Of a DNA stretch of 64,000 bases, positions 1,614 to 50,402 are shown piece after piece. This stretch comes from Cladochytrium replicatum (Eukaryota; Chytridiomycota; Chytridiomycetes; Cladochytriales; Cladochytriaceae). Every line of letters starts with the position of its first letter. Positions within the stretch are counted from its first letter, which is position 1. A program made the translations under genes and the position numbers. The notes beneath the pieces were generated by a model that saw only the letters and a program-made list of their open reading frames with translations, made no database searches and had not been told where the DNA came from. Location of the stretch: positions 62,001 through 126,000 of the forward strand of contig JAHLKD010000073.1 of NCBI GenBank assembly GCA_025526935.1, given 5' to 3'.

Positions 1614-4600
1614 ATGGACACATATCAGCGTCAGGGTTACGTCGTAAGGACGGCAGACAGACCTGGGATCACTTTTGCACCGCACATGGATCCGGCGATG
1701 ATAGCAGGACTTCCACCTGGAGGAGTGCTAATTCAAGGCCCACCGCCTGGTTCAACCGCTACATTTCCTCGCCAAGGGCTGCCCCCCGGCGCTGTCCTCC
1801 TACCACCTGGCGCATCACTCCCGCCCGGCGCGCAACTCATACAGGGTCCTGGGCCTGTTGTGGTTGCACAAGCACCACCGCCCCCTCCAAATCAACCTCC
1901 TCCACCTGGAACAACGTGGGTTTATGCACAGGGACTGCCAGTCCAACCGCCTGCACCGACATTTATACAGCAACCACCGCCTCCGGGCGTCATGCAATTT
2001 GTTCCCGGACACGGTTACGTTGTGCGACAGCTTCCACCTCAAAATCTTGTCTTGTCCGGGGCACCTCCTCCAGGTGCACAGTTTGTGGTGGGGCCGCCGC
2101 CGCCTGGAGGACCGCAGTATTTTTCGGCGGGGATGCCGATGCAGGGACACCCAATCCAGATGCAGCCTCAGTACCAGCAGGTTATGGTTGGACATCCAAT
2201 GCCGGGTCAGATGATACCGATCGCCCCGACGCTGGGGAGACAGTCGGCGGGACCTGGACAGAATACCACCGCTGCTGAGCCTAATGGGGGAACAGAGCAA
2301 CAGGCTGCTCGGTCGCAACCGGGAAGTGCGCCGACCACGCCGGCCCTGCAGCATAAAGTCGTGGAATCTCCGACACAGGTTCCAGAAGAAGTCAATCCAC
2401 CGGCTGGCAGCTCGAATGAAGCGGAGGACGCGTTTGTATCCGTCGCGCCTGCACGAATCGACTCTATCCCAGTGAGTCGCATCCGCAAAAGCTCAGCAGC
2501 CGACAAGCCCAGCAGCAGTAGCGAGGTCGAGCAGCAGCAGCAGCACCACCACCACCAACACCGCACCAGAACGTCCTCGTCGTTGGTGTCTCCACACACC
2601 CCCGACGCGAATTCCGCAAACGCGTCGAATCCAAAACACCTCGGTACGCCACACCACCAACTCGCTGGATCGGAATCTGAATCCGCCGTTGCTGCTGCTG
2701 AGCATCCGTCGCCTCATCATCCACAACCCTTCGCAGCATCCCCAAAGGTCTCTCCGCCCCAGCCAGATCCGCCCGCCCACCCGTCTGTCCTGAAGCCAGT
2801 GGCCCCCAGGCGGAATCACAGCATCCCCCGCCCCTCGGTCGACGAGTCTCCTCCCAGAGCTCAGCCAGCTGAACAACACACTCCTCCTCAGCCCGAGGAC
2901 CATCATTCTCGACAACTATCCGAACGCTCCCCCATGGTCCAAGCTCGTGCCCCGGCATCCAAACCCAGTAGCAGCAACATGCAACAACGACAACAAGCAC
3001 AGCTGCCATCTGGACCCCGCGCGCCTCTGGCCGGACTGTGGCAGCCCAACATCATAGTCGTGGACGAGCAGTCGGAGCTGTCCAAGATGCAGAACGGGGA
3101 CCAAGAAAATACATATCAGCAACAAGAGCAACAGTATCAGCCGCATGCATCTGCACCTTCAAGAAACGTTACGCCTATGGACGTAGTTCGAGCCAACCCG
3201 AACCACTTCCAACCACAACAGCACACGCAGTCGCAGATGGACGATACATCTTCGATTCATTCCGCGGCAACCGTGCGGACTGTGACTCCGATGCCGCATA
3301 TTGAGGCACTGGAGCTGTACAGACAGAATGCAAAGAAGAGCCACGACCCACAGGTTCAGCTTGACTTTGCAAAGTATCTGATTGCCACAGCAGAAAGTAT
3401 GTTGACAAACCTTTGAATTTTTGAAATTAATCACTGATTTTCTATTTTCTAGCTTTCCCCGTTGATATTGAGCCAGACCCAAGACTTGCGAGGAAGCAGC
3501 GCGAGATGATGTTTGCAGAGGGTCTCAAGTGGATCAAAAAGCTTGCGACTCAGGGCAACGGAATTGGTAATTGGGTAAATGGGAGTGCGTAAGTAATTTT
3601 TTTGTTGATCGGCTTTGTCCATGTAGGAAAGTCGTCATACCCCGAAGCTATGTTCTTCCTGGCAGAGTGCTACGGAAACGGCAGCTTGGGGCTTCAGGTT
3701 GACCATGAGAAGGCGTTCAACTTGTACGTGAACGCTGCCAAGCAGAACCACCCTGCAGCGACGTACAGAACGGCAGTGTGCTATGAAGTCGGTGCCGGCA
3801 CCAAACGTGACGCGCCTCGGGCGGTACAATTTTACCGCAAAGCCGGTGCACTTGGTGACACCGCAGCGATGTACAAGCTCGGCATGGTCCTTTTGAAGGG
3901 ACTGTTGAAGGAACTGAGGAATCCTCGCGAAGCAATCACATGGTTGAAGCGTGCGGCCAACCAGGCTGACGAGACGACACCACACGCTTTGCATGAGCTC
4001 GGACTTCTTTACGAAGGAAAGGGCTCCGATGCAGGCGGGAACATCATTCCGGTATGTAAACGAAAAATGAGATAATATCTTTTATTGCACAGATTCTAAC
4101 TATTGTGAATAACAGGATCCAGCGTATGCCCACGATCTGTTCCTGAAAGCCGCGCAGCTCGGATACGCCCCGTCGCAATACAAACTCGGACTCTGCTACG
4201 AGTACGGTCTCCTCAACGTCAACGTCGACTCGCGCAAGAGCATCGCATGGTACACCCGCGCGGCTGAGCAAGGCGAGCCCGAAGCCGAGCTGGCTCTGTC
4301 TGGGTGGTACCTCACCGGCGCAGACGAGACGCTTTCGCAGAGCGACACTGAGGCGTATCTCTGGGCACGCAAAGCCGCGGACAAAGGACTTGCGAAGGCG
4401 GAGTACGCGGTCGGGTATTATTCCGAGCATGGTGTTGGGGTGCGGCCGGACCTTGAGGAAGCTGTTGTTTGGTATACGAGGGCTGCGGGGCAGGGGAATA
4501 AGAGGGCTGTGCAGAGACTTGGAGAGCTGAATGGCGGGGTGATCCCGGCGCTGCCGAGTGCTGAGGGGGGAAAAGGTGGTGAGAATGGGAGCCATGCGAA

Positions 4601-4655
4601 GGGGGAGTGGAGAGATACTGGGGATGCAAAGAACGGAGAGTGCAGTGTGATGTGA
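1614..4655 (+). CDS. Skt5/Chs4-like chitin synthase regulator, Sel1 repeats, CaaX
   Basis: Model: join(1614..3396, 3453..3566, 3627..4051, 4116..4655), 953 aa. The N-terminal 200 residues are Pro/Gly-rich with recurring PPG units; residues about 220-570 are low-complexity, with Gln and His runs. From about residue 580 the sequence becomes Skt5-like (VQLDFAKYLIATAE, then EPDPRLARKQ), followed by tandem Sel1 repeats with characteristic GxGxxxD and A-x-x-W-Y/L-x-x-A-A motifs to about residue 925. The last four residues are CSVM, a CaaX box. In yeast, Chs4/Skt5 binds and activates chitin synthase III at the plasma membrane and is prenylated through such a box; that role here is inference. All three introns have GT-AG ends and keep frame. 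The N-terminus is much more Pro-rich than in yeast. Confidence 0.9.
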
Positions 4656-5105
4656 AACGCGCAATGGTGTTTTGCATTTTTTATGTTTGCTGTCTCACTT
4701 CTTTACGTATATCGGGAGTGTTTGAGTTTCGAGTGTTTTGTGTTTTTATATGTATGATTCCAGCGCACTTTGAGAAGGTTGTTCAACAGGAAACTGCATC
4801 CTTTGGTTGGGTTAGATCTCATTCCCCGATTGCTATTCTTTATGTCCACTTGCTTTGCTCTGTTTTTCTTGGCAACAACACAGATATTATCTCAGCCGAA
4901 TAACCTGATTGTGTCGCACCAGCTTTGAATCTGAAAAGCGACACCATAGATGCTTTATTTGAAAAGCGAATTTGAGAGGGTCTTCTGGGAATACATGGTT
5001 TGTCGCCTCACCGCAATGCCTTGATCACATATCAACAGTAAAGAAACTGTCGATCCAAAAAACACTAAAACAAGTAGAAAAAAGCAAAAAATCGTCTCTC
5101 TCCTT
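4656..5105. other. convergent 3' flanks
   Basis: A 450-bp AT-rich interval between the stop codons of two convergent genes. It likely holds both 3' UTRs and polyadenylation sites. No coding potential or RNA gene was seen. Confidence 0.5.
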
Positions 5106-7250
5106 CTACCACAGTCCACTTAGCGAATGGTACATGATGAGCCTCTCGCTCATCACGATCGACCCGTTTCTGACCGTATACCATCCCGTGAGCTGCTCGA
5201 CCGGTCCCTGATGCCTCACCGGCCATCCCCGTTCCTTATCCAACCGATCCACCTCCCACGACACGCTCGGTATCGTCTTCTTTACAATCTTTCTCTTCCC
5301 AGCCGCATTCTTGACCACCACCGAGACTTTAGTTTTCCAATTATGGTTCTGTATCCACGACCGCGGGAGCGCTATCGCCATCGCTTCACCAAGCCCATCC
5401 TTCTCGTTCGGATCGATCCAGTCACGCGGGCGCACATAGCGGTATATCACCGACCTCAACTCGGGCGGGTTGTTCTCGTCTTCCACGTCCCGCGGGCCGG
5501 GCACGATGATCTCCTGCACGTACGCAAACTTGTGCGGCGCGGAATGCGGCATGTCTGCAAAGTCCGCGCCGAGACAGAGCTGCTGTGTCGGCGCGAGCCA
5601 GTTCGCGCACTCGATCTCGGGCTGGAGCTCCAGCTCCCATTTCTCCAGGATCGAGCTGGCCTTGTTCGCAGCTGCAAAGACGTCGACGGCTTCCGGCGGC
5701 AGCGACGCTTTCGGTTTCGAGGTCAAGAGAGCCCGCTTCTTCTTGCGGTCCATTTTGAGTTGCCCGCGGCACATTTCGGCCGTCATGCGGTCCGAATTGC
5801 AGTAGCTGAGGTGGCGGTCATACAGCTGGATCACTTTCGGCGTTGTCCATTCGTATGTTTTCCATGGCAGCGCGAGCACTTTGAGCCTTTGCTGTGGGCG
5901 CGTGAACACGCCGTGGGAGTAGCAGCTCTCCGGGATGACTTGGTAGAGGTCTGGGTTGGCAAAGACCTGCATGAGGGTCTCGATGGAAGTGTAGTTCGAA
6001 CAGAGCTTCCAGAGGCTCAAGACCGTTTCGGGATTATTGCGGAGGTTGTGCCATACGAAATCCCTGCGGAGGAACACGCGGTGGTAGTCACCGCCATGGA
6101 GGGTCATGACGTCCGCAGACCACACGAGGTCGTTGTCCATCCAGCGGCCCATGTCGCCAAACACGACGTTGGGGGTCGCGTAGGCCCAGGATTCGCACCG
6201 TTCGGAGTTGATCCAGTGCGAGAAGAGGACAGGGTACATCCCGCGTAGCTGCTCCATGATACCGGAGCCGCCGCCCCTGTACCTCCGCAGACGGTCTTCG
6301 AAAGCGCGACATTCGGGCGACTGGAGGTCTACCTTGAAATAAGGACAAAGAATGTCGGCAACGTAGCCGGCAAATCCACGGTACCGGTAGCTCTGATCGA
6401 GAAGCGTGAGGTCAAACACTTGCACATTGCTGCCACCACTATCCGAATCCTGGAATGAGGTCGGATCAGGGAAATTGCGTTCGATTTGGCCTCCGATTCC
6501 GGTATGTGCGAAAAAGTACACGGATGCAAACCCGTCGTTCTTTGCTATGCTGTGGAGGAACACGCGAATGTAGTCGGGCATGAACCCACCTTCCCACGTT
6601 GAAACGATACAAACGGGAGTTCGCGACACTTTTGGAGGAACGAGAGAAAGGTAGGTGTCCGCAACGCTGGTGAGGTTCACAGTAAGACTTCCCGCCTTCC
6701 AGAAGGATTTTTGGATGTTGGAAAGCTCTTCGAGCGGGGGGAGTCCGGATTTCCCGACTTCGGACGGAATTTGAATTATGGCTGTAGGCGGTTTGTAGTC
6801 TTTCGGACGTGATCGGTATTCATTCACTTTGGGCGTGAAAGGGATGCCGAATGGAATCGCCCCTCGTCCGGGTGCTATTTCTGGAGGCTCGAAACGGGCG
6901 ACAAGATCAGGGAAGTCTTGTGGTGCGGTCGACGCGGCGGCTGGTTGACTTGGTGTGGGCAACTTTGGGTCTGCCCCCTCCAAAATCGGCCGTGTCGGCT
7001 TTCCACCTCCTGGAGGCGTCGAGATTTTCGTATCTGGTTTCGCGGCTGCCTTCGTTTCAGCATTTCGAGGTGGTTGCGGTGGTGGTTGCCACTTTCGGTC
7101 TGGTGGAGTGTTTGATTCGTCAAATTCCTTCGGAACTCCAGGAGTGCCAGTGTAAGACCAGAAGATGAAGGTTGCGACGAGAAGCAGCACCAGAACGAGA
7201 ATGCGAGACTTTCCTCGTGGCACAAACGAGAACTGGTTCAGCAGAGCCAT
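5106..7250 (-). CDS. type II membrane protein, glycosyltransferase-like (DUF6625-type)
   Basis: Intronless, 714 aa. A short cytosolic N-terminus with basic residues (PRGKSR) precedes one hydrophobic anchor at about residues 17-34 (ILVLVLLLVATFIFW), then a Pro-rich stem to about 160, and a globular luminal domain: the topology of Golgi glycosyltransferases. The central part has a WINSERCESWAYATPNVVFGD segment, then MGRWMDNDL and an aromatic WHNLRNNPE region, resembling the DUF6625 glycosyltransferase-like family, in which an acidic motif after an aromatic-rich strand is expected to bind the nucleotide sugar. The domain start (VCIVSTWEGG...DYIRVFLHS) fits a Rossmann-like beta strand. The donor sugar cannot be read from the sequence. 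The family assignment is from memory of the pattern, so it is moderate; the type II topology is clear. Confidence 0.65.
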   Translation of the reverse strand: MALLNQFSFVPRGKSRILVLVLLLVATFIFWSYTGTPGVPKEFDESNTPPDRKWQPPPQPPRNAETKAAAKPDTKISTPPGGGKPTRPILEGADPKLPTPSQPAAASTAPQDFPDLVARFEPPEIAPGRGAIPFGIPFTPKVNEYRSRPKDYKPPTAIIQIPSEVGKSGLPPLEELSNIQKSFWKAGSLTVNLTSVADTYLSLVPPKVSRTPVCIVSTWEGGFMPDYIRVFLHSIAKNDGFASVYFFAHTGIGGQIERNFPDPTSFQDSDSGGSNVQVFDLTLLDQSYRYRGFAGYVADILCPYFKVDLQSPECRAFEDRLRRYRGGGSGIMEQLRGMYPVLFSHWINSERCESWAYATPNVVFGDMGRWMDNDLVWSADVMTLHGGDYHRVFLRRDFVWHNLRNNPETVLSLWKLCSNYTSIETLMQVFANPDLYQVIPESCYSHGVFTRPQQRLKVLALPWKTYEWTTPKVIQLYDRHLSYCNSDRMTAEMCRGQLKMDRKKKRALLTSKPKASLPPEAVDVFAAANKASSILEKWELELQPEIECANWLAPTQQLCLGADFADMPHSAPHKFAYVQEIIVPGPRDVEDENNPPELRSVIYRYVRPRDWIDPNEKDGLGEAMAIALPRSWIQNHNWKTKVSVVVKNAAGKRKIVKKTIPSVSWEVDRLDKERGWPVRHQGPVEQLTGWYTVRNGSIVMSERLIMYHSLSGLW

Positions 7251-8105: not shown

Positions 8106-9910
8106 ATGGTTTCGTCAGACCAAGCTCGAGTGCTATTTGCAATGGCACTGTCTTATCCCCTTGCGTACCCTTATCGAACCTCGTTCCTCCGCTCACCCTC
8201 TGCAAAACATGCTTACTCCATCGTTACCACAACATCGCTCTGGGTAGCTCTATTTGGGGCTGAAGGCTACATACAATTGATCATCTCGATCCTCATCACG
8301 TATTTCCTTGTCGCCAAATGGGGTCGGAACCGATGTGGGGCAGCGATCGTTTTTGCTGTTGTTTTCGGTCATCTTTGTATAAAGTAGTGCTGTACCGCTC
8401 CTCTCTGACCTGTTTTAACACCTTCATTTCGTAGTCGGATCATGAAGCAGTGGAGAAATTACACAGATATGCAATACGATTTTACCGCACCTCAATTGAT
8501 TCTGGTTATCAAGCTCACGTCGTTTGCTTGGAGTTATCATGATGGCGGACTGCCTTCAGAAGTGAGTTTACTTATTTTCAAACCGCTGGCATTGTTCCTG
8601 AAATTGTAAATCTAAGAGAATTCACGAAGAACAGAGGAATTCCGCGGTCCATACATATCCAAATCTTCTGGAATTCATTGGGTTTGCTCTGTTTGTGCCG
8701 GGATTCTTCTCTGGTCCTGCATTCAATCTGTCCGAGTATGTGAGGTTTTCAAAGAATGAGGTGAAAAGAAACTCTATCAATTCGAGGCATATCCTGAATC
8801 TCCCTCACAGGGTGAATGGTCATCGTCGGCTGCAAATATGGGAGAAGCCAATATTCTAGCCATCAAGAAGCTTGCTGTTTCTGTCTGCTGCTTTTTTGGT
8901 TTTGTAACGATCAACGACTATCTTGGATTGAACTACCATTACGCCCTGACTGACAACTTTGTACGGCGCTTTTCCATAATTGCCCGGTGAGTGCGCAATG
9001 GCCTTTTCGCCGTTATCGCTGACACCATTGAAACAAAGTATTTTGTACTTTGTGATACCAGGGTTTGCGCAAAGACTCAAGTTCTATGGGATCTGGGAGC
9101 TGGCGGAGGGTGCTTGTATCATGTCAGGAATCGGGTACAACGGGACAGGATCGGACGGCAAGGCGCGCTGGTATATGAAACTCCAATTCCGTTTCTGGAC
9201 CTGCTTTTGAGCAATATTCCAGGGACCGACTTTCGAACGTGAATATTGTCAAGCTAGAACTTGCGTCTAACTTGAAAGAAGTGTTTGATAACTGGAACAT
9301 TATGACTGCGAAGTGGTTGAGGCAGACGGTGTACGTACGCATCAAGAATGACGCGCTCCGCGATACAACGCCAGGTGGAACTTCGAGAAGTGGTGGGCTG
9401 GCGTCACTAGCGACATTCTTAGTCAGCGCTGCATGGCATGGATTTTACCCGGGATATTACTGTGAGGGTGCTTTCCGCTCTTTTTTTGGTATTATGCTAA
9501 TCAGCTGGCGCATCCAAAAGTGACCTTCACTTCTGGTGCATTCTTCCTTCAAGTAGCGCGCGGTAAGCCGGCCAAGACACTTTCTTTGATTAGATCACCA
9601 ATTGGATCGATCGTTAGTAGTGAGAAAGTATGTCAGGCCGTTCTTTGCAAATCCCCAAAGTCAGTTCCATCGCTATCATTCGATATACGATGCTGTAACA
9701 ACGGCAGCAACTAGCGTGGTCTTGAATTTCCTAGTGGGAGCTTTCATTTACCTTCGATGGGACTATTCTATTGAAGTGTGGTGGAGCCGGTGCTTTTTGC
9801 TATGTCATTTTGCTGCTCTGATTGTGTTTCTATCATTGGAGTATTTTGGTCTGGGAAAGTATTTCTCCAATCTTCAACGGAGATGGGAGGCTAAAGCCAG
9901 CAAGGAATAG
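8106..9910 (+). CDS. MBOAT lysophospholipid acyltransferase (ALE1/LPCAT-type)
   Basis: Eight-exon model: join(8106..8383, 8435..8561, 8635..8760, 8811..8986, 9039..9170, 9223..9461, 9521..9562, 9618..9910), 470 aa, the normal family size. It has multiple membrane spans throughout. Family landmarks in order: FGHLCIN; the MKQWRNYTDMQYDFTAPQ block; YPNLLEFIGF with FFSGPAF; ELAEGACIMSGIGYNG; the FDNWN motif with the conserved Asn near residue 302; and AAWHGFYPGYYL with the catalytic His at about 352. This class reacylates lysophospholipids with acyl-CoA in the ER membrane (Lands cycle); ALE1/MBOAT5 is the nearest type by motif. Two acceptor choices remain for the last exon (9618 or 9621), changing one residue. 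The next same-strand gene starts about 100 bp downstream. Confidence 0.92.
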
Positions 9911-10009
9911 AAAGGATTGAACAGAGTAGGTGTTGGCGTTTCAGTCGTGTCGTGGCCCTCAAGTCGACCAATCAGACCAAACTTAGCTGTTGGAGAACAT
10001 AAATCAAAA

Positions 10010-10990
10010 ATGTCCGTCTCGCTCCCGCAACTTCCTACCGTTACATCTTCTTCAAATAGCACGCTTCTCCCATCATCATGCCTCAATAACACCGACTGTA
10101 CTTCCATCATCAAACAAAGAAACATAACACATCCCATCAATCCCAGTTGTAACACTCATTTCCACCGCTGCTATTTCCCATGGGGAGCATCATGTCTGAT
10201 CGACGACGATTGCAACTGGAATCTCCAATTATTCGCAGGATCTGATGACGAATATCGTATCGCTGAAGGGCATTGTCCCAGTAGCAGATTCGTTTGCCAA
10301 TTCCGGAGCATTACCGACACGGGTCTACCATGCGTGAGCAGCACCGACTGTCTAAGTCATTACCAGACCGGAGAAGTACTCGAATGCATTTCAGTGGGAG
10401 TGATCAGCGTTTGCCAACCGGGAACTACTCGACCAAATTTCACGTCCGTAGCCGTGCTGGGAAAAGATGGCACCGCTGCCTCTCAAATTGTCCTGATCGT
10501 GATAGGATGCGTCATTACAGTCTGCGCGATCGCAACTTGCGTTACCGTGTTCTACATGATCCAATACCGAAAGATCCATATCCGAGGACGGAGAGCGCAG
10601 CAGCGGCAACCACATGCATTTATGTCGTTTGAGTCTGCTGGTTTACAGACGACAGTTAGCGCGACGGAGAGCGAAGCGTTGCCAGAATACGAGCCTCGAC
10701 CAGAAAATGAGGTGCTCGGGGCGGAAGAGAACGTAATTGTGGACGGAGAACAATCACCAGGGGGAGAAACAAACGCTCCAGAAGCAGGAAGTTCAGCAGA
10801 GGCTGCAGCAAACCTACATTGGTCGATTTCTGAAGAAGAACTTAACTCGCTGAGCAGACAAGGGAGTGGACAGGTGTTGATAGCACAATCGGATAGTCAA
10901 TCTCCCCTTGGGCCACCACCATCCCCTGGAGCACCCCCTGGGTATGAGGGCGAGCAGTCTGGTGGCATTATCCAAACGCGAATGGCTTAA
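10010..10990 (+). CDS. Cys-rich single-pass membrane protein with PY motifs
   Basis: Intronless, 326 aa from the ATG at 10010; an in-frame ATG at 9917 would lie only 6 nt after the preceding stop and is less likely. Residues 1-155 form an ectodomain with paired-cysteine elements (NNTDC, DDDCNW, STDCLS) and Asn-glycosylation sequons; a hydrophobic span lies at about 156-178 (IVLIVIGCVITVCAIATCV), followed by a basic stop-transfer (YRKIHIRGRR). No classical signal peptide is visible, so insertion may rely on the internal span. The cytosolic tail is acidic and Pro-rich and carries LPEY (about 224) and PPGY (about 309), typical ligands of Nedd4/Rsp5 WW domains. A receptor or ubiquitin-ligase adaptor is possible but unproven. 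The family is not recognised. The following RasGEF gene starts 44 nt after the stop. Confidence 0.7.
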   Translation: MSVSLPQLPTVTSSSNSTLLPSSCLNNTDCTSIIKQRNITHPINPSCNTHFHRCYFPWGASCLIDDDCNWNLQLFAGSDDEYRIAEGHCPSSRFVCQFRSITDTGLPCVSSTDCLSHYQTGEVLECISVGVISVCQPGTTRPNFTSVAVLGKDGTAASQIVLIVIGCVITVCAIATCVTVFYMIQYRKIHIRGRRAQQRQPHAFMSFESAGLQTTVSATESEALPEYEPRPENEVLGAEENVIVDGEQSPGGETNAPEAGSSAEAAANLHWSISEEELNSLSRQGSGQVLIAQSDSQSPLGPPPSPGAPPGYEGEQSGGIIQTRMA

Positions 10991-11034
10991 AAATAGACTG
11001 TTTCCCACACAGACATTCCCAAGCCCCACCAAAT

Positions 11035-13292
11035 ATGGAGTTGATCAACAGCCTGGCGGATTCGGCCATAGAGGCATATCGGGAGGGAGATGCGAGGAAG
11101 GCATTCCAGGGCAACTTCAAGGCTGTAAATGCGGTGCTGCTATTTCTACTGGATAATGTGAAGTGGGGTCATGACCAGCAGATATCATCAAAGCCAGATA
11201 ACATCTCGCATTTGTTTCGAATTGCCCACCTTGCTCTCAATCGAGCTGAGGAGATCGTGAAGAATCGAGGTTCCACAACGGTTCTTGCGAGTGAACAGAA
11301 GAAAACTTACCTATCTGATGCGGGACATGAGGAATATGAAGGACTTCACGGGGATGCGCCGTTGGTTCCATTCTCGCCGTTTGCAAGACAGCTGTTCTCG
11401 CACGTGAATCAGCTTAAAGTTGCTCAATCACGTCTTGCGAAAGTTCAGGCAGAATCGAAAGACAGCGTGAGCTTGACTGCTCTGAGGAGGTAAATTAGCA
11501 AGTTGGCTGCTGTGATCACGCTAAATCGATTCCCTCAAGGTTGGTGGAGGACGTTCGGATTCAAAGAACAAAATGCGACGATATCTCACTCAAAATGGAG
11601 CAGATTGCAGCTGTTCCGCTTGCTTACTGGAGACCAGAGGAGATTGCACAGGAAGTCACCCGAATCGACGTTGAAATTTTCTCTCGTATCTCTCCCAGGC
11701 TCGATTTACCAATTCATCAATCTAGTCCGAACGTTAAAGCCTGCCTCGACTTTCACGAATTTCTGGAGAGGATTGTGATCACATCAGTATTGAGAGCTCA
11801 ACCACATGAACAGGGCTCGCAGCCTTTGCCCCCCAATGCCCCACACTTGGCAAGAGCTCATGCAATTCATCACGCTGTCTCAATAGCTTTCACATTTCTC
11901 TATATTTATCGCAACCTCAATGGCCTTTGTGCCGTTTTAAAGGCTCTAAACTCTCCTGAAATTCAACGACTTAAGAAGACTTGGGAGCTCGTCGGCTACG
12001 AAACAACCAATATGCTCCGGCATTTGTTGCAGGTCGCACCGGTCTCATTCGACATGTCGACCCTTGCCCACGAACACAAGGTTCTGGTGTCCGACCTGCT
12101 TCAGGCACACTATCGCGGAGGCGGGCTGATTACAATTGTTCCGTGGCTTGAGCCGTGCGTTGCTGAAGTCGATGATATCAAACACGCCTACGTTGTTGCG
12201 GGAGAGGCGTACTCTGGATCGAACGAAGTTGTATTGTCGGATATTGGCACGCGCCTACTCGAGCAGATCATTGCTCAGGTGGAGCTCTGCCAAGGTGCCG
12301 GGACATCGGAACTGACTCCAGCCATATTCGAATCATCCTCTGGATCGACCTCTGGCAAAGGACGGAAAACAACTGGTGCTGGAGGACCCCCAGCTTGGAG
12401 CCACCCTGTCGCTCCACCATCAGACGACCTCAGATCTATAGGAATTGCCGATAATGCCTTGCAGCATTACATACTGACTAGAGTGTTCTTCCCGAGGCAG
12501 TTCCTGTGGAAGGAGAGCGCTAGACTGGAGAGGCTAGAGAAAGGCGAAATCAATCCGTACCCCGAAGAACCACAAGTGCGCAAGTTGCAGCAAATCAACC
12601 AAAGTATTCTTGACAACGACGAGAAGTCAGTTACGAATTTTGCACTGCTCCAGCCCACCCAAACCACTCAGTCAACCGAACCACTTCAAGAAATAGGTGA
12701 AGCGAATGACGCTCCAGACACCAGTCAGTCGACTGAATCTAATCAGGACGATGGCGATTTAAAGGGCTTCCCTTCCATTCCCACGGAATCGCCATTGCGC
12801 TCAGGCGGAGATGTTCCAGCAACGGTAGACGTTACGGACGAAGAACTTGAACGTCGCATCTTCATGCTTACGGCACAGGCCGAAAGAGAACTGCTTGTTG
12901 ACAACGAAGAGATTCCTAATACAGGTGGCACTGACAACCAGGAAGGCGAGAGCACAAACGTAGAAGAGTTTAAACCTTACGATGACTTGCTCAGTCAAGT
13001 CAAATCGGTGCTGAGTGACGCAGCGCAGGTGATCGGAAACTTGGATGCATCTATTGAGGGGGCACAGAAAGCCGCCGAAAGGGGCGATAGTTCAGATGGC
13101 GATGAAGAAGAAGATTTGTTGGATGAAGATGGAAATCGAATCTTGCCTGAGGAGCCGACAGAAGAGAATGACCCTGGAAACAAACTATCTGCTTCGTCCG
13201 CAACTGATACGAAACACGACGAAGCAGACGGCGACCAAGAGATTTCAACGGAGGACCTGATGAGACGACTGCAAATGCTCCGAAAACGATGA
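11035..13292 (+). CDS. MIT-like plus RasGEF domain protein
   Basis: Model: join(11035..11489, 11540..13292), 735 aa. Residues 1-90 are helical and resemble a microtubule-interacting-and-transport fold (AYREGDARKAFQGNFKAVNA...ALNRAEEIV). A CDC25-type RasGEF catalytic domain follows at about 180-420: WRPEEIAQEVTRIDVEIFSRI, LDFHEFLERIV, ARAHAIHHAVSIAFTFLYIYRNLNG with the catalytic-hairpin region, and QRLKKTWELVGYETTNMLRHL. The rest is acidic and disordered with a C-terminal basic helix (LMRRLQMLRKR). The protein should load GTP on a Ras-family GTPase, perhaps on endosomal membranes if the MIT assignment holds. No RasGEF_N domain is seen. The intron (GT at 11490, AG at 11539) is needed to keep frame. 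Confidence 0.85.
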
Positions 13293-13360
13293 TGTTTGCG
13301 TTTTGAAGTCTGTACATTTGCGCGAACTTCTCAATACAGTATGTTACAATTTTGCATATA

Positions 13361-14491
13361 TCAGAGTCCTCCTGCAGGCGGACGTGGTCCGTTTTCCCAG
13401 CCATGCCACTCCGCAGTGCTTTTGTTACCCGCTCCTTCGGGCCTCAGTTGAGCTGCGTTGCGAACTCTCACCGGCACATCGGAGAGCTTGACGGCAATTT
13501 CGGCAACATTGTTGTCGTACTATGAACAATAACAAAGACGTTACGTCGGGCCCATTACATTTGTTTTGCTTACCCGAAGTTCAGGGAAGAATCGGTTGGG
13601 ATTTATCGTCACTTTAACAACAAGGTTTTCCTCCCGGTCAAGTTCAGTGATGTCGATCCTTCGATTTGTGTAAGTAATTTTTCCCGTCCAAAGAGCACCA
13701 CGTAAATGTCATTGCATACCACTGACAGGCCAGACTGTCGTCGTAGATGTCTGCACAACCTTTCTGTTTGATAGGGTCAGCTGAGTAGAATGATTGACTG
13801 GATTTTATGACATTGTCTGGAGTTTACCTGAACACCTTGGAAGGTGCAGTTGTATTTGAGAGGTATGCCATCCTAAGCAGACGAATGAATGGCTCATCTT
13901 CTTATGACCAGCACTTCACCATACCGGGCACTTCAGATCTTCAAGGCAAAAGCCGTTTTTGTGTCCCCCGCCTACGCTCTGAAGTTGCTGGTTACGGTCC
14001 GGAACAAGTATCTCGTAATTTGCATACTCTATGTTCTATTGTTAGTTCACAAACGTCAGTTCTGTTCTACATTGTCTACCCTCAAAGTGAAAGTGGTTAT
14101 GGCAGCTATCGAAATGCCAATAGACTGGTGACGATCCGGTATCTTCGCGACTTGAAGGCGGGTGTCCCAGAAACGCATCAGCCGATCCCCTGTTGTGCAC
14201 CATGGTCCCAAAGCGGAGTACTTTTTTCGAACTGATTTACGGGTTTGTGATTCTTGTTCGACATCTCCACCCACCTTTTCTCACGCCGGGTCCAGACAAG
14301 CAGTTTTCTCTGATCAGGCATGGATCGGCATCCGCGTTCACAAAATCGATGCTGAGAGTTTGTTTAAGATAGTTCGAATCTGGCTCAAAGTCCGGCAGAG
14401 CCTCCATTTGAGCATCAACAACTGCTTGGTAAGCAAAAACGGTAACAAGGATCAGCGCACAATCGATCAATCCACCTATCATCGGAGACAT
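13361..14491 (-). CDS. secreted lysyl oxidase, seven exons
   Basis: Model: complement(13361..13519, 13574..13658, 13720..13763, 13828..13872, 13925..14028, 14080..14220, 14275..14491), 264 aa; every join keeps frame. Residues 1-27 are a signal peptide (LILVTVFAYQAVVDA). Then come VLRFGTMVHNRGSADAFLG, the copper site WHFDSCHNHFHF (residues 107-118; His113, His115, His117), GHKNGFCLED with Lys143, KGCADIYDDSLACQWIDIT with Tyr176, and NPNRFFPELRYDNNVAEI. Lys143 and Tyr176 align with the pair that forms the lysyl tyrosylquinone cofactor in animal LOX; paired cysteines are kept. The enzyme would oxidise lysine side chains of extracellular proteins to aldehydes. It has no animal-type propeptide or SRCR domains. 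It is divergent from CFAP144 (210 bp between starts) and convergent with RasGEF. Confidence 0.9.
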
Positions 14492-14701
14492 GATGAAACG
14501 TTCGAAGGATAGACAAGCTCTACTTTAGCAATTCATCTATGCTACAAATGTGACACACGCTTTCCTCCCCACTCCACGAAATGTGCACATCAAAGTCAAA
14601 GTTACCTCATCCAATCAAAAGGTTACAAACCAAATGCCCACCAAACACCCTGACAATACATACAAACTTGATCAGAACACAACACGATAGCTGCTGAGGA
14701 A

Positions 14702-15254
14702 ATGGCAGATAAATCAGGAAAAGGTTCAAGCGGTCGAGCATCCCTCGTAAACGACGCAAAGTTTGCTGAGACGATCCGCAAGGAGCTGAGATTTCACAAG
14801 CTTTACGAGAACTATATGCTGAGCCCAAGTGTCAAGAAAAGTATGTTTCCATGACTCCATTCGCAGAAAACCAACCGCAACGATTTAAACTTCAACAGAC
14901 CTCGTCATCACGAACAAGCCAACATCTGCAAAACTGGACGGGGAGACAATCGATCGTACGTTGTGATCTTGATAGGAGTTTTCATGGAACGCACTGAACC
15001 TGGAAGTTCTTTAAAAGCTGAATACATGAACAAGTGTCGATACGCTCAGCTAGCGCCAAGAGAGAAGTACGAGCTTCCGATTACGAGCTCACAGGTGTAT
15101 GGATGGGACACGGAGCCATTGGTGAGAGTGATCCATGGAACGGAATGGGCTCGAACTGACGATTTGGGGCTAGGTAAAACTGAACGACAGAAGATTTCAC
15201 TTTCCCCGTGTGGAGTCGTCTATAACAAAGTCGCACGGACAAGTGAGGAAATAG
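14702..15254 (+). CDS. CFAP144/FAM183-type axonemal protein
   Basis: Model: join(14702..14840, 14899..14955, 14976..15121, 15174..15254), 140 aa, near the animal size of about 134. The ETIRKELRFHKLYENYMLSP segment, then VYGWDTEPL and NDRRFHFPRVESSITK, match FAM183/CFAP144 in order. The third intron (donor after GAGCCATTG, acceptor gggctag) is essential: reading through instead gives a longer but unconserved tail ending at 15307. CFAP144 proteins are small axoneme-associated proteins of motile cilia, so presence here implies a flagellated zoospore. The second intron is only 20 nt (14956-14975), which is unusually short; an alternative is that exons 2 and 3 join differently by a few codons. The gene is convergent with UBE2J (101 bp between stops). 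Confidence 0.82.
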
Positions 15255-15355
15255 CGAAATATGGGGTATTTTATTCGAAGAGAAGCAACCTTACATCGAC
15301 AAAATAAAATCAAACAATCCGTTTATATCAAAATAACGACGAAGAAGCTAATGTA

Positions 15356-16463
15356 TTACAGCAATAGAGGGAGCATGTTTGTAAGCCGACGCAATACTAT
15401 GACGCTCAGCAAGACAACAACCAGTCCCAGGGCAACATCGACTTGTGTCCGCCTGTAAGATTGGGTGGTTTGACGCTGCGGTTGTCCAGAGTTGCCACTA
15501 GTCGCCGCAGTACGTCTGGGCGAAGCAGCTGCTTCGATTGCAGATGCTCTGTTGGCTGGAGGGACTCGATGACGTAGTTCACCACGATCAGATGAGCGAG
15601 CGGGAGTTCCAGATTGAACCGAATCATTGACCCGCGTTGGAGAAGGTAACGCTGCAGGGAAAGCTGTGTTAGCGGACGGAGTCCCATCTTCAGAGCTCGA
15701 TCCCGACAAAATTGGGGTCTTTGGAGAAAGTGATCCAACGGCTCCAGTTCCAGCGGATAAACTTCCAGCGTCTGGGGGCGTAACAGCTGGTGATGAGGAT
15801 GATGATCCATCACCGTTTCCGTCTGCTTTAATCGTCAAGGAGATCTCGGGATCAACTTCAAGCGTTTCAGAGGGCCGTTCACTTTCGTCTGGTAGCGCTG
15901 TTGCATTTTGGCTTCCGCACACACTGCATACCCATGATCGACTCTTGTTAGCGCATTTGGCACGCTCTTCGTCGGTCCAATCGAGTGCGCCGATTGCTCC
16001 CTCTCCCTTTGTGGGCAAGAAAGAAATAATAGCCACCAGTGCAGTTGCGATTCCCCATGCAGGTCTCCAGGATTCAGGATGGTGGCCAGTAATCGATAAG
16101 CAGATCTTCTTCCCGACTTCAAACCTTCCAAATAGTGTTGTGACTTTGAGACGTTTTCCTTGTAACTATTAGAATTACCTCCCGTTTGGAGTAAGAAATG
16201 AGATATTTGGCGGTTTGAATGGATAATCTGGAGGGAAAATCATTCTTCCATGATAGCGTCCTCCTGAAAATCCTCCAGTATTTGGGCCGCGGATGGTGAA
16301 GTGCCTGGTGGAGGACATAGTTGAATTTGTATGAACACCAACATTAGGCGTACCATTCAAGCATATTATCTTCCAAAGGAGCAGCGGTAAACTCTGGTGA
16401 TGGGTCTGCCTGCAGCTCACGGAACTCTGACAGCAAACGCTTCACTGCCGGGCTCCTGCTCAT
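15356..16463 (-). CDS. tail-anchored ubiquitin-conjugating enzyme, UBE2J type
   Basis: Model: complement(15356..16124, 16179..16304, 16354..16463), 334 aa. It starts MSRSPAVKRLLSEFREL, then HFTIRGPNTGGFSGGRYHGRM, FPPDYPFKPPNISFLTPNGRF and KKICLSITGHHPESW with the catalytic Cys at about residue 87. LPTKGEGAIGALDWTDEER follows, and a CSVCG element. Residues about 135-290 are Ser/Pro-rich and disordered; a single C-terminal hydrophobic segment (about 308-332) makes it a tail-anchored ER protein. UBE2J enzymes charge ubiquitin for ER-associated degradation. The TPNGRF form in place of HPN is normal for this subfamily. It is convergent with CFAP144. Confidence 0.93.
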
Positions 16464-16554
16464 GAATGCTGCTGATGGGTGGTGGTGATACGTGGGACCT
16501 CTGAATTAATTTTTTGATGGATTTTGTTTTTATTGATATTACTCTCGTCACTGA

Positions 16555-17968
16555 TCACTGGAATGGGCGAGAGGTGGCCGTATACACTTTACGATCTTCA
16601 ACAGCGAGAGCGGGAAGCTGTCGGGATGGTGCTGATTTTATAACTCTCTTCATGTATGGCTCTTCTTCCCCTGAATCTCGAAGCTTTTCCTGCGAGCAAA
16701 GTTGGTTCCACTTTGCGGGCGGAATGTACCATGCACCGTAGTGAGGTTTCTTATCGTGACGTTGAGTGCTCATTGTGGGTGCTTTGTTCGAAATCGGTCG
16801 TTCAACAGAGAATCGGTTCATGGGTAATGCATTCAAACCTGTACGGATAGCTTGGGTTCTGTGTGATCTTTCTTCAATTTTTATTGCAGGTATTGAGCTT
16901 CCACGCTTGCCGGACGGTACAGACGCTTCAGCAGACTCGGCATATCTCTCGTGGGTAACCCGAAGTTTTAAGGGTCGCCTGCCCTCCAAAACCGTCGGCT
17001 TAAGTGCATTGAACAAAACATCAAACTCCAATATTTCAGGATGTGTCGATTTGGCTTCTGGACTGGCAGTTGTGAGTTCCAGTACTGAATCTGGGTTCGC
17101 ACTAGTAGAAGTTTGGTTGTCGCCGAGAAGAACATTGACAGAACCATGGGACTTCACTGGGGTATGAATTTTGGGGTCCAGGATTGGAGGCTTGTCAAGA
17201 ACCTCGACAACGAAATGCTGAAGGCCAGATAGAACTGCAACTTTTGTTAGGTGTTGTTCAATCATCGGACTCCAATATCTTTCACCTTGATAAAGATTCT
17301 TCACAGGCCCATTCTCCTCAACGTACGTCCTTCGGGAGCTGACAGGTGCCGCCGACTCATCTCGGACTTGGAACCTGCCATCAAGCAAATGACTGTACTT
17401 TTGGGATGGATCAAGTTGGGTAGCCCTGGTGAGGACGTCTGATCAAAAGTTAAAGCATAAACGGAGCGATGAAATTTCTCTCCCTACCATCTTTCAACAT
17501 ATCAGTGTCGTTCATAAGTAGACCAGGTGCGTGGTCCCGAACGATTGACGCAATGCCTAGATTTGTCAAAGCAATGGTGGAGGTTCTCCTTGTTTGCAAC
17601 AAGCTTTTGAGGTTTCTTGTATTGGATTCTTCCTTTTGCGTGTTGGAAGCTTCGTGATTCAAGCGGTCTTTGACTAAAACATATTCCTCGATTGGGAAAG
17701 GGTATGGTGCAAGGGGCGTGGGAGCATCGTCAACTGGTGCGTCTTTCAGACTTGCTGGAACTTTTGTTATTTTTGCACTTGTTTTCCTTCTCAGTCGATC
17801 GTTACGAGCTACCGCCATGCATATTGCGTTTTGCTGGTCCCTTGACAAACCCAGATACTCGACACTCTCCAATCCGGAACATTCGAGATCTACACCCGTC
17901 CGAATAATTCTTCCGGATGAGCTGATAGCACTTTGCCTCATTGGTCTCTTTTCTGATCCTGCCAACAT
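16555..17968 (-). CDS. FAM47-like protein, two exons
   Basis: Model: complement(16555..17438, 17488..17968), 454 aa from the ATG at 17968. The frame stays open upstream to beyond 18025 but only with non-ATG starts, so a 5' exon or a further upstream start is possible. The intron (GT at 17487, AG at 17439) keeps frame. The protein is basic and mostly disordered. Near the C-terminus (about 395) is HYGAWYIPPAKWNQL, resembling the short GAWY...W motif of the FAM47 family, whose function is poorly known and tied in animals to testis and cilia. The rest is unrecognised. Its 5' end lies within about 40 bp of the start of the divergent ArgRS-like gene. Confidence 0.6.
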
Positions 17969-41456: not shown

Positions 41457-43921
41457 CGTTGCGAGCAAACAAACGGGGAATAGAGTAGCTACAGCAATAT
41501 TTGGGTGTGCATTATTGTTGCGTGTGTAGGCCCGTTGGAACACCACAACACCACATCAAATCTGTGCGCCACCGAATGGGAAAATCAGATAAATCAATAA
41601 ATCTGTTGTGGACTGGTAACATTGAGCATGGGTTACTTGGGGTAAATCAGACATGGCCACATTCAAACGAAAAGTACAATAACAAATGAGCGGGATTTAA
41701 TACAAGCTTTATTTGTACTTGCATTCCAAAAAAGGGGGTTACAAGTGCCTTATGCACTAGGGAGATATGAGACGGGAAACAAAAGCAAGGGGACGTACGT
41801 CATATGGTGAGACAAAAACAAGGTAACATACTCAATAGGGGAAAAAATCAAAGTGCAACACAACTGAGGCAACGTTGGACTTGGCGGCGAGGTGAACGGG
41901 GAGAGAGGAATCAGTCCTCTAGATCGTGCTCGAGATGCAGAAAGGCCACTGCATCGATGTGGTTGGCAATCAGCTGCCACAACGGATGGGCAGTTGCATT
42001 TACCACAGCGCAACGTGCCAGCCAACCATCGAGGACAGCATTTGTGGGAAGACCATCTGGGTAGTGGGGCAATTGCGGCGGAAACAGGAGAATGTTGAGC
42101 ATGGCGTTGATAGGATTTGTCCAGTTGGCAGTGGCAACTGCGGGCACCTTTGCTTTTTCATGGTCAAACCCGGCCTGTCAAGCCTTCATTTCGTTATCTG
42201 GGGTGCTTTTCAGAGACACTCGTTTTGATGTTTCACTGACCACTGCAGCTTCTTTTGCTTTGCTTCCTTTTTTCAAGACCCATTCTCTGATTGTGATTCG
42301 TCAGATGTTTTTGTCATTTATTTGACCTATGCTTGAATTTGGTGTGCATATTATGGTTCCCTGTGTTGTGTGAGCAAAGCAGCCCGGACCTTTAGTCACC
42401 AGAGTTTGTGTCGATTTCTTCGCCTTTCATTTCCCACTTCAATTGCTGGGGTGTTGATGTCTTTTAAGTTTCCTGACCTTCAGTTTAAGCTTCAATATCT
42501 GCAGTTTCAGATGTTTCAGCGTTGGTTAGATGATGATGCCCCTGATATGGTTTACTCTATGTTGTCATTCTTTCTTCACTAGGGAAACCATTTTTGTTGT
42601 TCTCCTGTTCCTTTCAACAATCCCTTCCTCATCCCTCCTGCAAATTTTGTAGTTCACAAATCTTCTGATGTTATTGCAAATCACTTTCATCAATCAGCCT
42701 TATCTGCCGATGGTGCTCTAGCTGCTAGCTTTGCTCCCCTTGCATCTTCCCACCCTCATGCGCTAGCAATTGCTCCTTCATGCTTCCCTATTTCGTCGAT
42801 CTTGAGGCTGCTGCAATATTGTCTTGTGCCTTTGTTTTATCACCCCAGCAAGCAGTGTTGGCACTGTCTTGTTGCAACTCTCTCTAAATCTCATGTTTCA
42901 ATCTTGACCTATTGTTGCCTCCTGTTCTTGTTCCTGTTTTGCAGTGTTAAAAGCCAAGGGCCTCTCCTGGCAGCGGTAGGGCGGTTTTAGCTATACTGTA
43001 GCTAGCACAACAGCTCCAGGTTCCGTCTCTTGGCCCGGTGCCTGTTCTTCTAGGTGTGTGTATATGCCTAAAAATCAGGCAGGCTGTACATCACCTAAGC
43101 TGGTCAGGCAACCAGGGAATGCTGTGGTCAAAGACATTTGTCACATCAACTCCTATATTCAAGTGAACAGTGTGTGTGGGCATACCTGCGGTCAAAGACA
43201 TTGGTCACATCAGAGGACCAAGCCACACCACATCCCCCCACTAAATGCCACCATAACTCTCTCTACACAGAACCTGCCAAACATGGAAATAAATACATGA
43301 AATACAAGTCCATAAACAAGAATGAAGAGGGATTGGCAAAAAACCTCTCAGATCAAAGAGAAAAAGACAACCCAAAGGATAACCCATATAGCGAACAGTC
43401 TGATATGCTAGTTTTTAATATGCAGCTTCCCATTGATGTTGCAATTGATATGCTTGGTCCACTTTGCGTTCTCAATGCTGTGAATCTTGCACTGTGATAT
43501 TCAGTTATGTTGTCTTCATAAGATTGGGCTCACTGTATGGGTCTGCCATCAGATATTTCTCTTCCAGACCCCCTGCAGCTAGTCATTACCTAAGGTGGTC
43601 ACGTGATCCTTTGTATTTGGCTTCTTTGATTATCTACTATCTTCAACGGCGCGGTAGCAGAGCAGGTTCTCTGAACCAGTGAGCAACACAGCTCTTACCA
43701 TCAATAATAATTTGGTACCTGTAATAGTGCACCACCACCACCATACACACCTGCCCATCTATCATCTTCCGTTACTCACCTTCTCTCATAACAGCCCAGC
43801 GTGTGGCACTCGTTCCCGTCCAATCAATTTCACTGCCACCGCCACGCATTCCCGCTGGTTTTATCTGCCGCTTTCCCTCGGCAACAAATCCAAACAAAAT
43901 TGAACTATCTGCTAAAAAAAT
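41457..43921. repeat. long non-coding tract, probable decayed mobile element
   Basis: About 2.4 kb without a supportable gene, unlike the dense surroundings. From about 42.2 to 43.0 kb the plus strand is strongly pyrimidine-rich. A minus-strand open frame at 41911-42147 and plus-strand frames at 42.1-42.6 kb are not protein-like in motif content and start with poor codons. Two copies of a 23-bp direct repeat differing by one base (ggtcaaagacat...cacatca) lie at 43126-43148 and 43190-43212. Closest reading: an eroded transposable element plus the NOX promoter at the right end. No terminal repeats or reverse transcriptase motif could be found by eye. Confidence 0.35.
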
Positions 43922-47861: not shown

Positions 47862-48789
47862 CTGGTCTGTCTGTGAGTGAGGCTGTCGGGGTGGCTGTGT
47901 ATTGGGTTAAGTGCACGTGAACCGCGAACCGCGCTAAGTACGATGTATTGATATCCACAATAACAGTACGTTTTAATGCATGAGGTGTATTAGTACCTCA
48001 GTTCCTCTGAATATGTAACCTTTTATAGCAATCGTCATTGGCATAATAAGATGTCGAAATAAACAAATGCTTTTCTCACGCTCGATGGCCTCAAGTGAGT
48101 CGTTGTTCGATATCCACCGTGTCTTTCTCCCAATTTCATCAACTGGACTCACAGCTAAATTTCACCTTTTCAATGCTGCGCTGATTGACTACCTTTCGAA
48201 TCTCGGTTGATAGGCAGATACCACTTTTCTAGTCTCCCCTCTCCATCTTTGTTGAGCCGATCTATATCGTGTGGATTTCAAGGCTAAACCGTTCTGAACA
48301 AAGCGATCGCCAGAACAGAACCGTTATGAAAGGTGTTGAGAACCAGAATAAGGAAGATACGTACGGATCAAGAAAGGTGGAAAATGGATCATGAAATGTC
48401 GCAGGTGTTGGTGAACAAGGTGTCAGATCGATAGAAACAAGAGCGAGATCCATTAAACATCAATCTAGGACTAACTGTTAGACGCATCATAATATTGTAT
48501 TTCTTTTGTCAAGTCATCTATTATTTGTTCGGGAAAGCCGTCTGATGATTACTCTAAATTTAGCTTGGACCGTTCAGCATTATGTATATTTCAGATCATA
48601 GCCATTATCACAAATTAAAATTCACACAGTCACATAGAGAGTTTCTTTAGCTATGTCAAAGGGGGTTGACGGGATTAAGTGGGTGAGGATTAAAAGACTC
48701 ATGCTCGAAAACCAACAGCTGCAACCCATAAAGGGGAGTTGCAGATTCAGAACACAAGTTTTCGGTTGTCACATTGGAGCTGATTTGTT
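47862..48789. promoter_or_regulatory. eL43 upstream region and sugar porter 3' flank
   Basis: About 930 bp between eL43 and the stop of the sugar porter, both on the minus strand. AT-rich, expected to hold the ribosomal protein promoter. No specific box was identified and no coding frame is convincing. Confidence 0.4.
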
Positions 48790-50402
48790 TCAAGCCTTCT
48801 CGGCGGTGGCAACTTCAGCCGACAACACCGGGGCAGTGAGCGAAGCCTTAACGATGTTGGGGGCCTCGAACACCTCATCGAGCTGCTCAAGGGTACGGCC
48901 CTTAGTCTCAGGGAAGAAGATGTAGACAACGGTTGCGGCCAAAGCGTTGAAGAGCAGGAAGAACGAGAAGAACTTCCACCTGAACGCGTTGATACCGTAC
49001 GAGAGCACGTAGGACTGGAAGACGTTGGCAGCGTTGATGAGAAGCTGGCACACAGCCATACCCTTGGCGCGGGCACCGTAGTTCAGGCACTCAACGGGGT
49101 ACAAGGCGTTGAGCGGGGTCCAGCAGATCGAGTAGTTGATGGCGAAGATCTGGAGGAACACGAACGCGGCGATACCGGCGGCAATGGGGCCAGTAGCCTT
49201 CTCCGGCTCGGGAGAGTCACCCTGGTAGTAGACAGCCAAGCAGACGATGATAAGGAAGTACCAGACACTGTAGCCGACGTGACCGAAGAAGAGGTAAGGG
49301 CGACGACCGAACTTGTCGACGAGGGAGGCACCACCAAGAGCAGCGATGAAGGAGATTATACCTGTGACGACGTTGAGGAGGAGAGCCTGGTCTTCGCCGA
49401 CAATACCAAAGTACTTGGTGATCTGGGGCTGGAAGTAACCAGCGAGCCAGTTACCGGCGTATTGCGAGAAGAAGGCAACGCAGAGCATCAAGAACATGCG
49501 GTATCGGGCTGCGCGGGTGGAAACCAAAGCGGCGAAACTGGAGGCATTCTGTGCCTTCTCATCCTCGATCGACTCTGTGATTTCGCGGAGCTCAATAGCG
49601 ACGATCTCGGCGTCGGGGTTATTATTGGCGTGGTACTTGATCAAGAAAGCCTTGGCCTGGTCAATCTTTCCCTTGGACACGAGCCAACGGGGAGACTCGG
49701 GGATGATGAAAGAACCCAAAAGCACGATTCCGGAGAAAACTGCCTGAAGGGCAACGGGGAGTTTCCAGGACAAGTCGTTCTTAAGGTAGCTGAGACCGTA
49801 GACAACAGCGGCGGCGGGCAGCGATCCAACGAACCAGCCAGTGTTGTAGAAGGCAGCGGCGCGACCACGGAAGATGGGGTGAGCGACTTCAGCAGCGTAG
49901 ACCTAAAGTAGTTGCATCATTAGTTTTTGTATTCAAAATCCTGATAGAATTAACGTACTGGAGCAGAAGTGGTCACGAACACGACACCGAAACCGATTAC
50001 AAATCGACCAAACATGAAGACGGGGAGGGAGGAGGTGAAAGTCGAGACCAGAGCACCGACGATAATGAACAAGGAACCAGTGACCATTCCACCTCGACGA
50101 CCGAAGTAGTCCATGGGGATGTAGCAGACAAAGCAACCGCAGATGGAACCGATCTGAAGGAGAGCGAACAACAGGGAGTTGTCAGCAGGGGGGAACTCCT
50201 TGGCGCCAACACCTGCGAAGGTGTCCAGGAATGGACGGACGACGGAGAGACCTCCGAGAAGCGAGAGATCATAACCGTTGATGGCCGAGTTCAAGAACGC
50301 GATGAAGCACGCGAAGTAGAGGTGAAGGAACTCGGGAGAGTACCAGTTGAGGTTGTCATTGTTGCTGAACGCGTTCGAGACGACGACTTCTTCTTTGCCC
50401 AT
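48790..50402 (-). CDS. MFS sugar porter (fungal sugar transporter family)
   Basis: Model: complement(48790..49902, 49959..50402), 518 aa. It has the MFS sugar-porter signatures: NSAINGYDLSLLGGL in TM1, DYFGRRGGM in loop 2-3, PESPRWLVSKGK after TM6, KFGRRPYLFFG in loop 8-9, and PETKGRTLEQLDEVF at the C-terminal cytosolic end. The GYD start and the overall arrangement are those of fungal hexose/lactose-type permeases; the exact sugar cannot be read. The N- and C-termini are cytosolic. Codon third positions are unusually rich in C and G compared with neighbours, suggesting high expression. The single intron is phase 0. A dense run of hydrophobic spans is present throughout (12 expected). Confidence 0.9.

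Follow-up and report, generated by a model that had tools for sequence, protein, structure and literature searches.

On the minus strand of the window (the whole 64,000-nt stretch of DNA that was analysed), positions 14491-13361 hold a gene of seven exons, 44 to 217 nt long, whose predicted spliced frame runs for 264 codons plus a stop, without an internal stop, and encodes a 29.3-kDa product (Table 1). When the minus strand was spliced, the seven-exon model of the original prediction proved exact in its coordinates, in its longest exon of 217 nt and in its in-frame joins. All six introns are bounded by GT..AG. Introns 1 and 5 end in AAG, an acceptor less common than CAG or TAG, and this counts against the gene model. 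Nevertheless, the joins made there (RK/VLRF and CQ/WIDIT, the slash marking the join) fit the family to which the product was assigned, since an intronless bacterial relative (L023) reads REVLRF and CQWIDITD at the same places. Joins 2 and 4 also continue as in that protein (HYHFENYAEY and TKGCADIY); joins 3 and 6 fit it less closely, yet show no gaps in an alignment with the animal-type protein LOXL2. About 210 bp (14492-14702), possibly a shared promoter, separate the start of the gene from the point where a divergent plus-strand gene (MADKSGKGSS...) appears to begin.

Table 1. Exons and introns of the lysyl oxidase (LOX) gene, in window coordinates.
Feature	Position	Strand	Length	Phase and ends	Content	Basis
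Exon 1	14275..14491	-	217 nt		signal-peptide-like N-terminus, first Cys pair C58/C64	splicing, hydropathy
Intron 1	14221..14274	-	54 nt	phase 1, GT..AAG		
Exon 2	14080..14220	-	141 nt		copper motif H113 H115 H117	splicing, LOXL2 alignment
Intron 2	14029..14079	-	51 nt	phase 1, GT..TAG		
Exon 3	13925..14028	-	104 nt		LTQ lysine K143	splicing, LOXL2 alignment
Intron 3	13873..13924	-	52 nt	phase 0, GT..TAG		
Exon 4	13828..13872	-	45 nt			splicing
Intron 4	13764..13827	-	64 nt	phase 0, GT..CAG		
Exon 5	13720..13763	-	44 nt		LTQ tyrosine Y176	splicing, LOXL2 alignment
Intron 5	13659..13719	-	61 nt	phase 2, GT..AAG		
Exon 6	13574..13658	-	85 nt			splicing
Intron 6	13520..13573	-	54 nt	phase 0, GT..TAG		
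Exon 7 and stop codon	13361..13519	-	159 nt			splicing

Family membership and predicted active site

The spliced product matched the Pfam family PF01186 (Lysyl_oxidase) with an E-value of 1.8e-37 and 129.4 bits (cut-off 20.4), over residues 57-233 and profile positions 25-203 of 204; by its E-value this match is far above chance level. Unspliced genomic DNA of the locus already scored 45.5 bits against the same profile, above the cut-off. At an E-value of 0.001 no other Pfam family was matched, and hence no TPQ amine oxidase profile. The sole relative of solved structure found at that threshold was human LOXL2 (5ze3, "Lysyl oxidase homolog 2"; E 4.5e-24). Profile and structural relative thus bear out the lysyl oxidase identity that had been proposed and, judged from its sequence, the gene is an intact member of the family, an identity that is solid.

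The alignment with LOXL2 pairs CHNHFH with CHRHYH, GHKNGFCLED with GHKASFCLED, and GCADIYDDSLACQWIDIT with GCWDMYRHDIDCQWVDIT. An HxHxH copper core (H113, H115 and H117) follows C112 and is aligned to its LOXL2 counterpart, while K143 and Y176 fall on the LTQ Lys and Tyr of LOXL2; the copper motif and the Lys/Tyr pair were found where the original prediction had placed them. The three histidines, the lysine and the tyrosine are common to all nine rows of a divergent LOX alignment. Of the nine cysteines in the protein, C11 lies in the leader and the other eight (C58, C64, C112, C147, C153, C163, C172 and C182) align with cysteines of LOXL2. The animal catalytic domain has ten conserved cysteines including a C-terminal pair, and this pair has no counterpart here because no cysteine follows residue 182. 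The cysteine pattern that had been described as kept is therefore present in its eight LOXL2-aligned members and lacks the C-terminal pair. In human LOX, the LTQ cofactor is made from K320 and Y355 (Grau-Bove et al., PMC4448552). As a point against an active enzyme, Asp110, counted from C112, occupies the place of the first copper-motif histidine of animal LOX, LOXL1, LOXL5 and LOXL2/3/4 (H289 in human LOX), a residue that is absent from fungal and bacterial LOX in the account of the same authors (PMC4448552).

The window protein is 38% identical to the LOXL2 catalytic domain over the aligned stretch, which only 28 residues precede. It shares with that domain the His core, the LTQ Lys and Tyr and the eight aligned cysteines, and differs in lacking scavenger-receptor domains and the C-terminal Cys pair. 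With PF01186 as its sole match, it likewise shows neither the SRCR domains nor the proline-rich region or propeptide of animal LOX/LOXL1/LOXL5 and LOXL2/3/4. In 15-residue hydropathy windows the best values (1.9-2.4) started at residues 4-11, and no window starting past residue 41 exceeded 1.6. Residues 4-25 are strongly hydrophobic, so the N-terminus resembles a signal peptide by hydropathy, in agreement with the original prediction, although no Lys or Arg stands ahead of the hydrophobic stretch, which counts against the call. Overall, the profile looks like that expected of a soluble secreted protein. The haloarchaeal HTU-LOX, an active non-animal enzyme with a broad substrate range, is described as having an N-terminal signal peptide (PMC6452851).

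LOX was reported in 2015 from the zoosporic fungi Spizellomyces punctatus and Gonapodya prolifera, as well as from ichthyosporeans, Acanthamoeba, red algae, bacteria and archaea, and the non-animal proteins were predicted from their conserved residues to be catalytically competent (Grau-Bove et al., PMC4448552). The window gene is thus a further case rather than a new kind. As described there, the two fungal proteins resemble it in being LOX-domain proteins of zoosporic fungi without the first copper-motif histidine. A fungal LOX group is named in a figure legend of PMC6452851. No other paper on fungal LOX was recognised by its title or the start of its abstract among the matches listed in a search of largely open-access literature. 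Most prokaryotic LOX are described as consisting of the LOX domain by itself, at most accompanied by a signal peptide or transmembrane region (PMC4448552), so small size is no evidence for the "minimal ancestral enzyme" of the original prediction. That description is not specific, and a nine-row LOX tree leaves the place of the protein open.

Host genome and paralogs

The window belongs to a 50.5-Mb genome of 198 contigs. The chitin synthase family PF01644, which is typical of fungi, gave 22 matched stretches in this genome and none in 14 control genomes, of which the named ones are bacteria. A DM10-domain frame lies at window 60278-61264 and NYD-SP28 was matched twice in the genome; both are flagellar families. 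From these matches, the earlier description of the host as a zoosporic fungus is fair. PF01186 was not matched in the 14 control genomes, which, the named ones being bacteria, are a weak control for a eukaryote. Elsewhere in the window, 42147-42943 and 43423-43574 form a repeat with at least tens of copies genome-wide at 78-88%, several of them no more than about 5 kb from the beginning of a contig.

A protein search of the same genome gave nine matched stretches at three LOX loci, namely the window gene, a decayed copy on contig C9 and a 655-residue form on contig C20. This set of three loci is the new result here. The C9 copy (C9:251989-252938; about 4955-5939 of locus L011) has 53-55% protein identity to the window gene. 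It contains three in-frame stops, gaps touch 36 of its 265 codons, and it carries the changes K143N, H117Q and Y176 to stop. Its surroundings are duplicated as well: window 9356-17660 is collinear with part of C9 at 74% identity, shorter pieces match between 4381 and 19454, and window 43772-45878 matches C9:275442-277541 at 84%. The 89% match of window 48558-50000 to C9 may reflect a gene family rather than a piece of the duplicate, as C47 and C6 match nearly as well. In both copies the RasGEF frame that neighbours the LOX gene (11541-13289) is uninterrupted for 583 codons, and the two are 79% identical. The C9 block suggests either an old duplication of large extent or a pair of subgenomes that have diverged.

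With gaps left out, the exons of the two LOX copies are 77-91% identical and the introns 58-77%, the highest intron value being that of intron 3, with just 22 aligned positions. Exon differences fall on codon positions 1, 2 and 3 in the ratio 29:26:79, and the RasGEF frame is similar (70:49:191); among ungapped LOX codons that differ, 51 changes are synonymous and 53 nonsynonymous, a balance that counts against a functional gene. The spread over codon positions reads as a sign of past constraint on the protein. Together with the higher identity of exons than introns, it indicates that constraint on the protein probably acted on both copies during a large part of the time since they separated, and that the C9 copy died later; the pair informs on that past constraint and not by itself on the present constraint of the window copy. 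Repeat-induced mutation was considered as the cause of the dead C9 copy and found unsupported, since transitions are balanced between the window and C9 blocks (A-to-G 230, G-to-A 212, T-to-C 197, C-to-T 191). That the C9 duplicate is broken at its stops, gaps and catalytic positions lends some weight to the idea that the window gene is likewise silent or dying and happens to be intact soon after relaxation. We consider this unlikely, as in the window copy the His core, Lys and Tyr common to all nine rows are preserved, the 264-codon frame is open and all six introns run from GT to AG.

The third locus was matched at C20:110461-110862, with 37% identity to the window protein. This gene has two exons (3275-5293 of locus L012) and encodes 655 residues with 25 cysteines and a hydrophobic leader. 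PF01186 matched in the middle of the protein (residues 315-427, E 2.3e-10) and no further Pfam family was matched. The copper histidines 353, 355 and 357, Lys374 and Tyr413 are kept.

Predicted function and distant relatives

Lysyl oxidases are copper enzymes that harden the animal matrix by cross-linking collagen, and their role in fungi would tell what the family did before collagen. The present locus serves this question with a clean gene model, with which an intact paralog of another architecture and a naturally dead copy can be compared. The best explanation of the window gene, and one we hold with good though not full confidence, is that it is a functional nuclear gene for a small, intact, secreted amine oxidase of the LTQ type. 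LTQ-dependent amine oxidation is the likely chemistry, given the residues and the family. Going beyond gene structure, family, residues and the comparison of a decayed with an intact paralog, we infer secretion, cofactor formation, activity, a substrate and a cross-linking role. The N-terminal hydrophobic stretch would direct the protein to the secretory path and the three histidines would bind copper. The substrates would then be primary amines, probably those of lysine side chains in proteins that are secreted or lie in the wall; their oxidation would free hydrogen peroxide and ammonia and leave aldehydes that cross-link. The cross-linking step itself, which the original prediction suggested for wall or sporangium proteins, is a conjecture put forward tentatively, at not far short of an even chance.

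Instead of cross-linking, the same enzyme could serve as a secreted amine oxidase of broad specificity, releasing ammonia from amines in the environment or producing hydrogen peroxide. An archaeal LOX showed activity once refolded, with more of it when copper was added, and was inhibited by 3-aminopropionitrile; its specificity is relaxed, and its substrates include glycine, taurine and aminoglycosides (PMC6452851). In line with this possibility, no Pfam domain besides LOX is present to aim the window enzyme at a matrix, and a search of unspliced frames of its genome, which gives a lower bound, found no convincing collagen. A single match exceeded the collagen cut-off (31.6 bits, a 267-aa frame); it lies opposite a longer, 695-aa open frame that is itself rich in Gly-Pro repeats and was not taken as collagen, although it may be one. 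Nothing specific speaks against amine scavenging, although the family acts on peptidyl lysine both in animals and in the archaeal case (PMC6452851). We regard it as a serious candidate of less than even probability, and slightly favour an enzyme that acts on secreted or wall proteins.

Fungi are described as having no animal-type collagen matrix (PMC4448552). A wider proposal, which we consider rather doubtful, is that two secreted LOX of unlike structure, one of 264 residues with a single domain and one of 655 residues rich in cysteine, are maintained by selection in a fungus that has no recognisable collagen. Flagellated fungi would then have, as an established trait, a wall or sporangium matrix that contains no collagen and is cross-linked through lysine aldehydes, and this trait would be older than the cross-linking of collagen in animals or run parallel to it.

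The most similar relatives found outside the genome are bacterial. A scan of named prokaryote genomes, which relied on a pair of short patterns derived from two aligned rows and thus gives a lower bound, returned at least one relative, the protein L023 of a Chitinophagales metagenome-assembled genome (MAG), 41% identical over 199 aligned positions; L027, from a genome of the same phylum, is 39% identical. Both have the motif signatures of the window LOX and, unlike the usual lone domain of prokaryotes, carry the LOX domain inside stop-free open frames of 836 and 1134 aa. PF01186 was matched in 4 of 395 genomes drawn from this phylum, a count that includes the genome that prompted the choice of phylum. 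Plasmids gave one match, from Gemmatirosa, at 28% identity. That the closest outside relative found is a Chitinophagales protein speaks for a bacterial contaminant, or for a gene acquired from bacteria very recently. Such an origin is highly improbable, however, as the gene has six introns of spliceosomal type, belongs, like a RasGEF gene, to the block that is duplicated on C9, shares the window with Sec7-like genes and is at most 41% identical to the bacterial proteins found. In the nine-row tree long branches meet and the group that includes the window protein stays open, so an ancient transfer is compatible with it and no claim of ancestry is made.

When viral contigs were searched from the fungal protein and alignments, one relative was found (L022, positions 2800-3429; IMGVR_UViG_3300022562_001652), a protein of 209 aa whose LOX domain has the His core and the Lys/Tyr pair. 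Used as a query against the viral contigs, this protein returned its own contig only; it had no PHROGs match, and none was found in 50,697 phage records. The contig, 113.8 kb long and classed as viral by IMG/VR, has RusA-like and SbcC-like genes adjoining the LOX gene, and it may be a bacterial fragment misclassed as viral.
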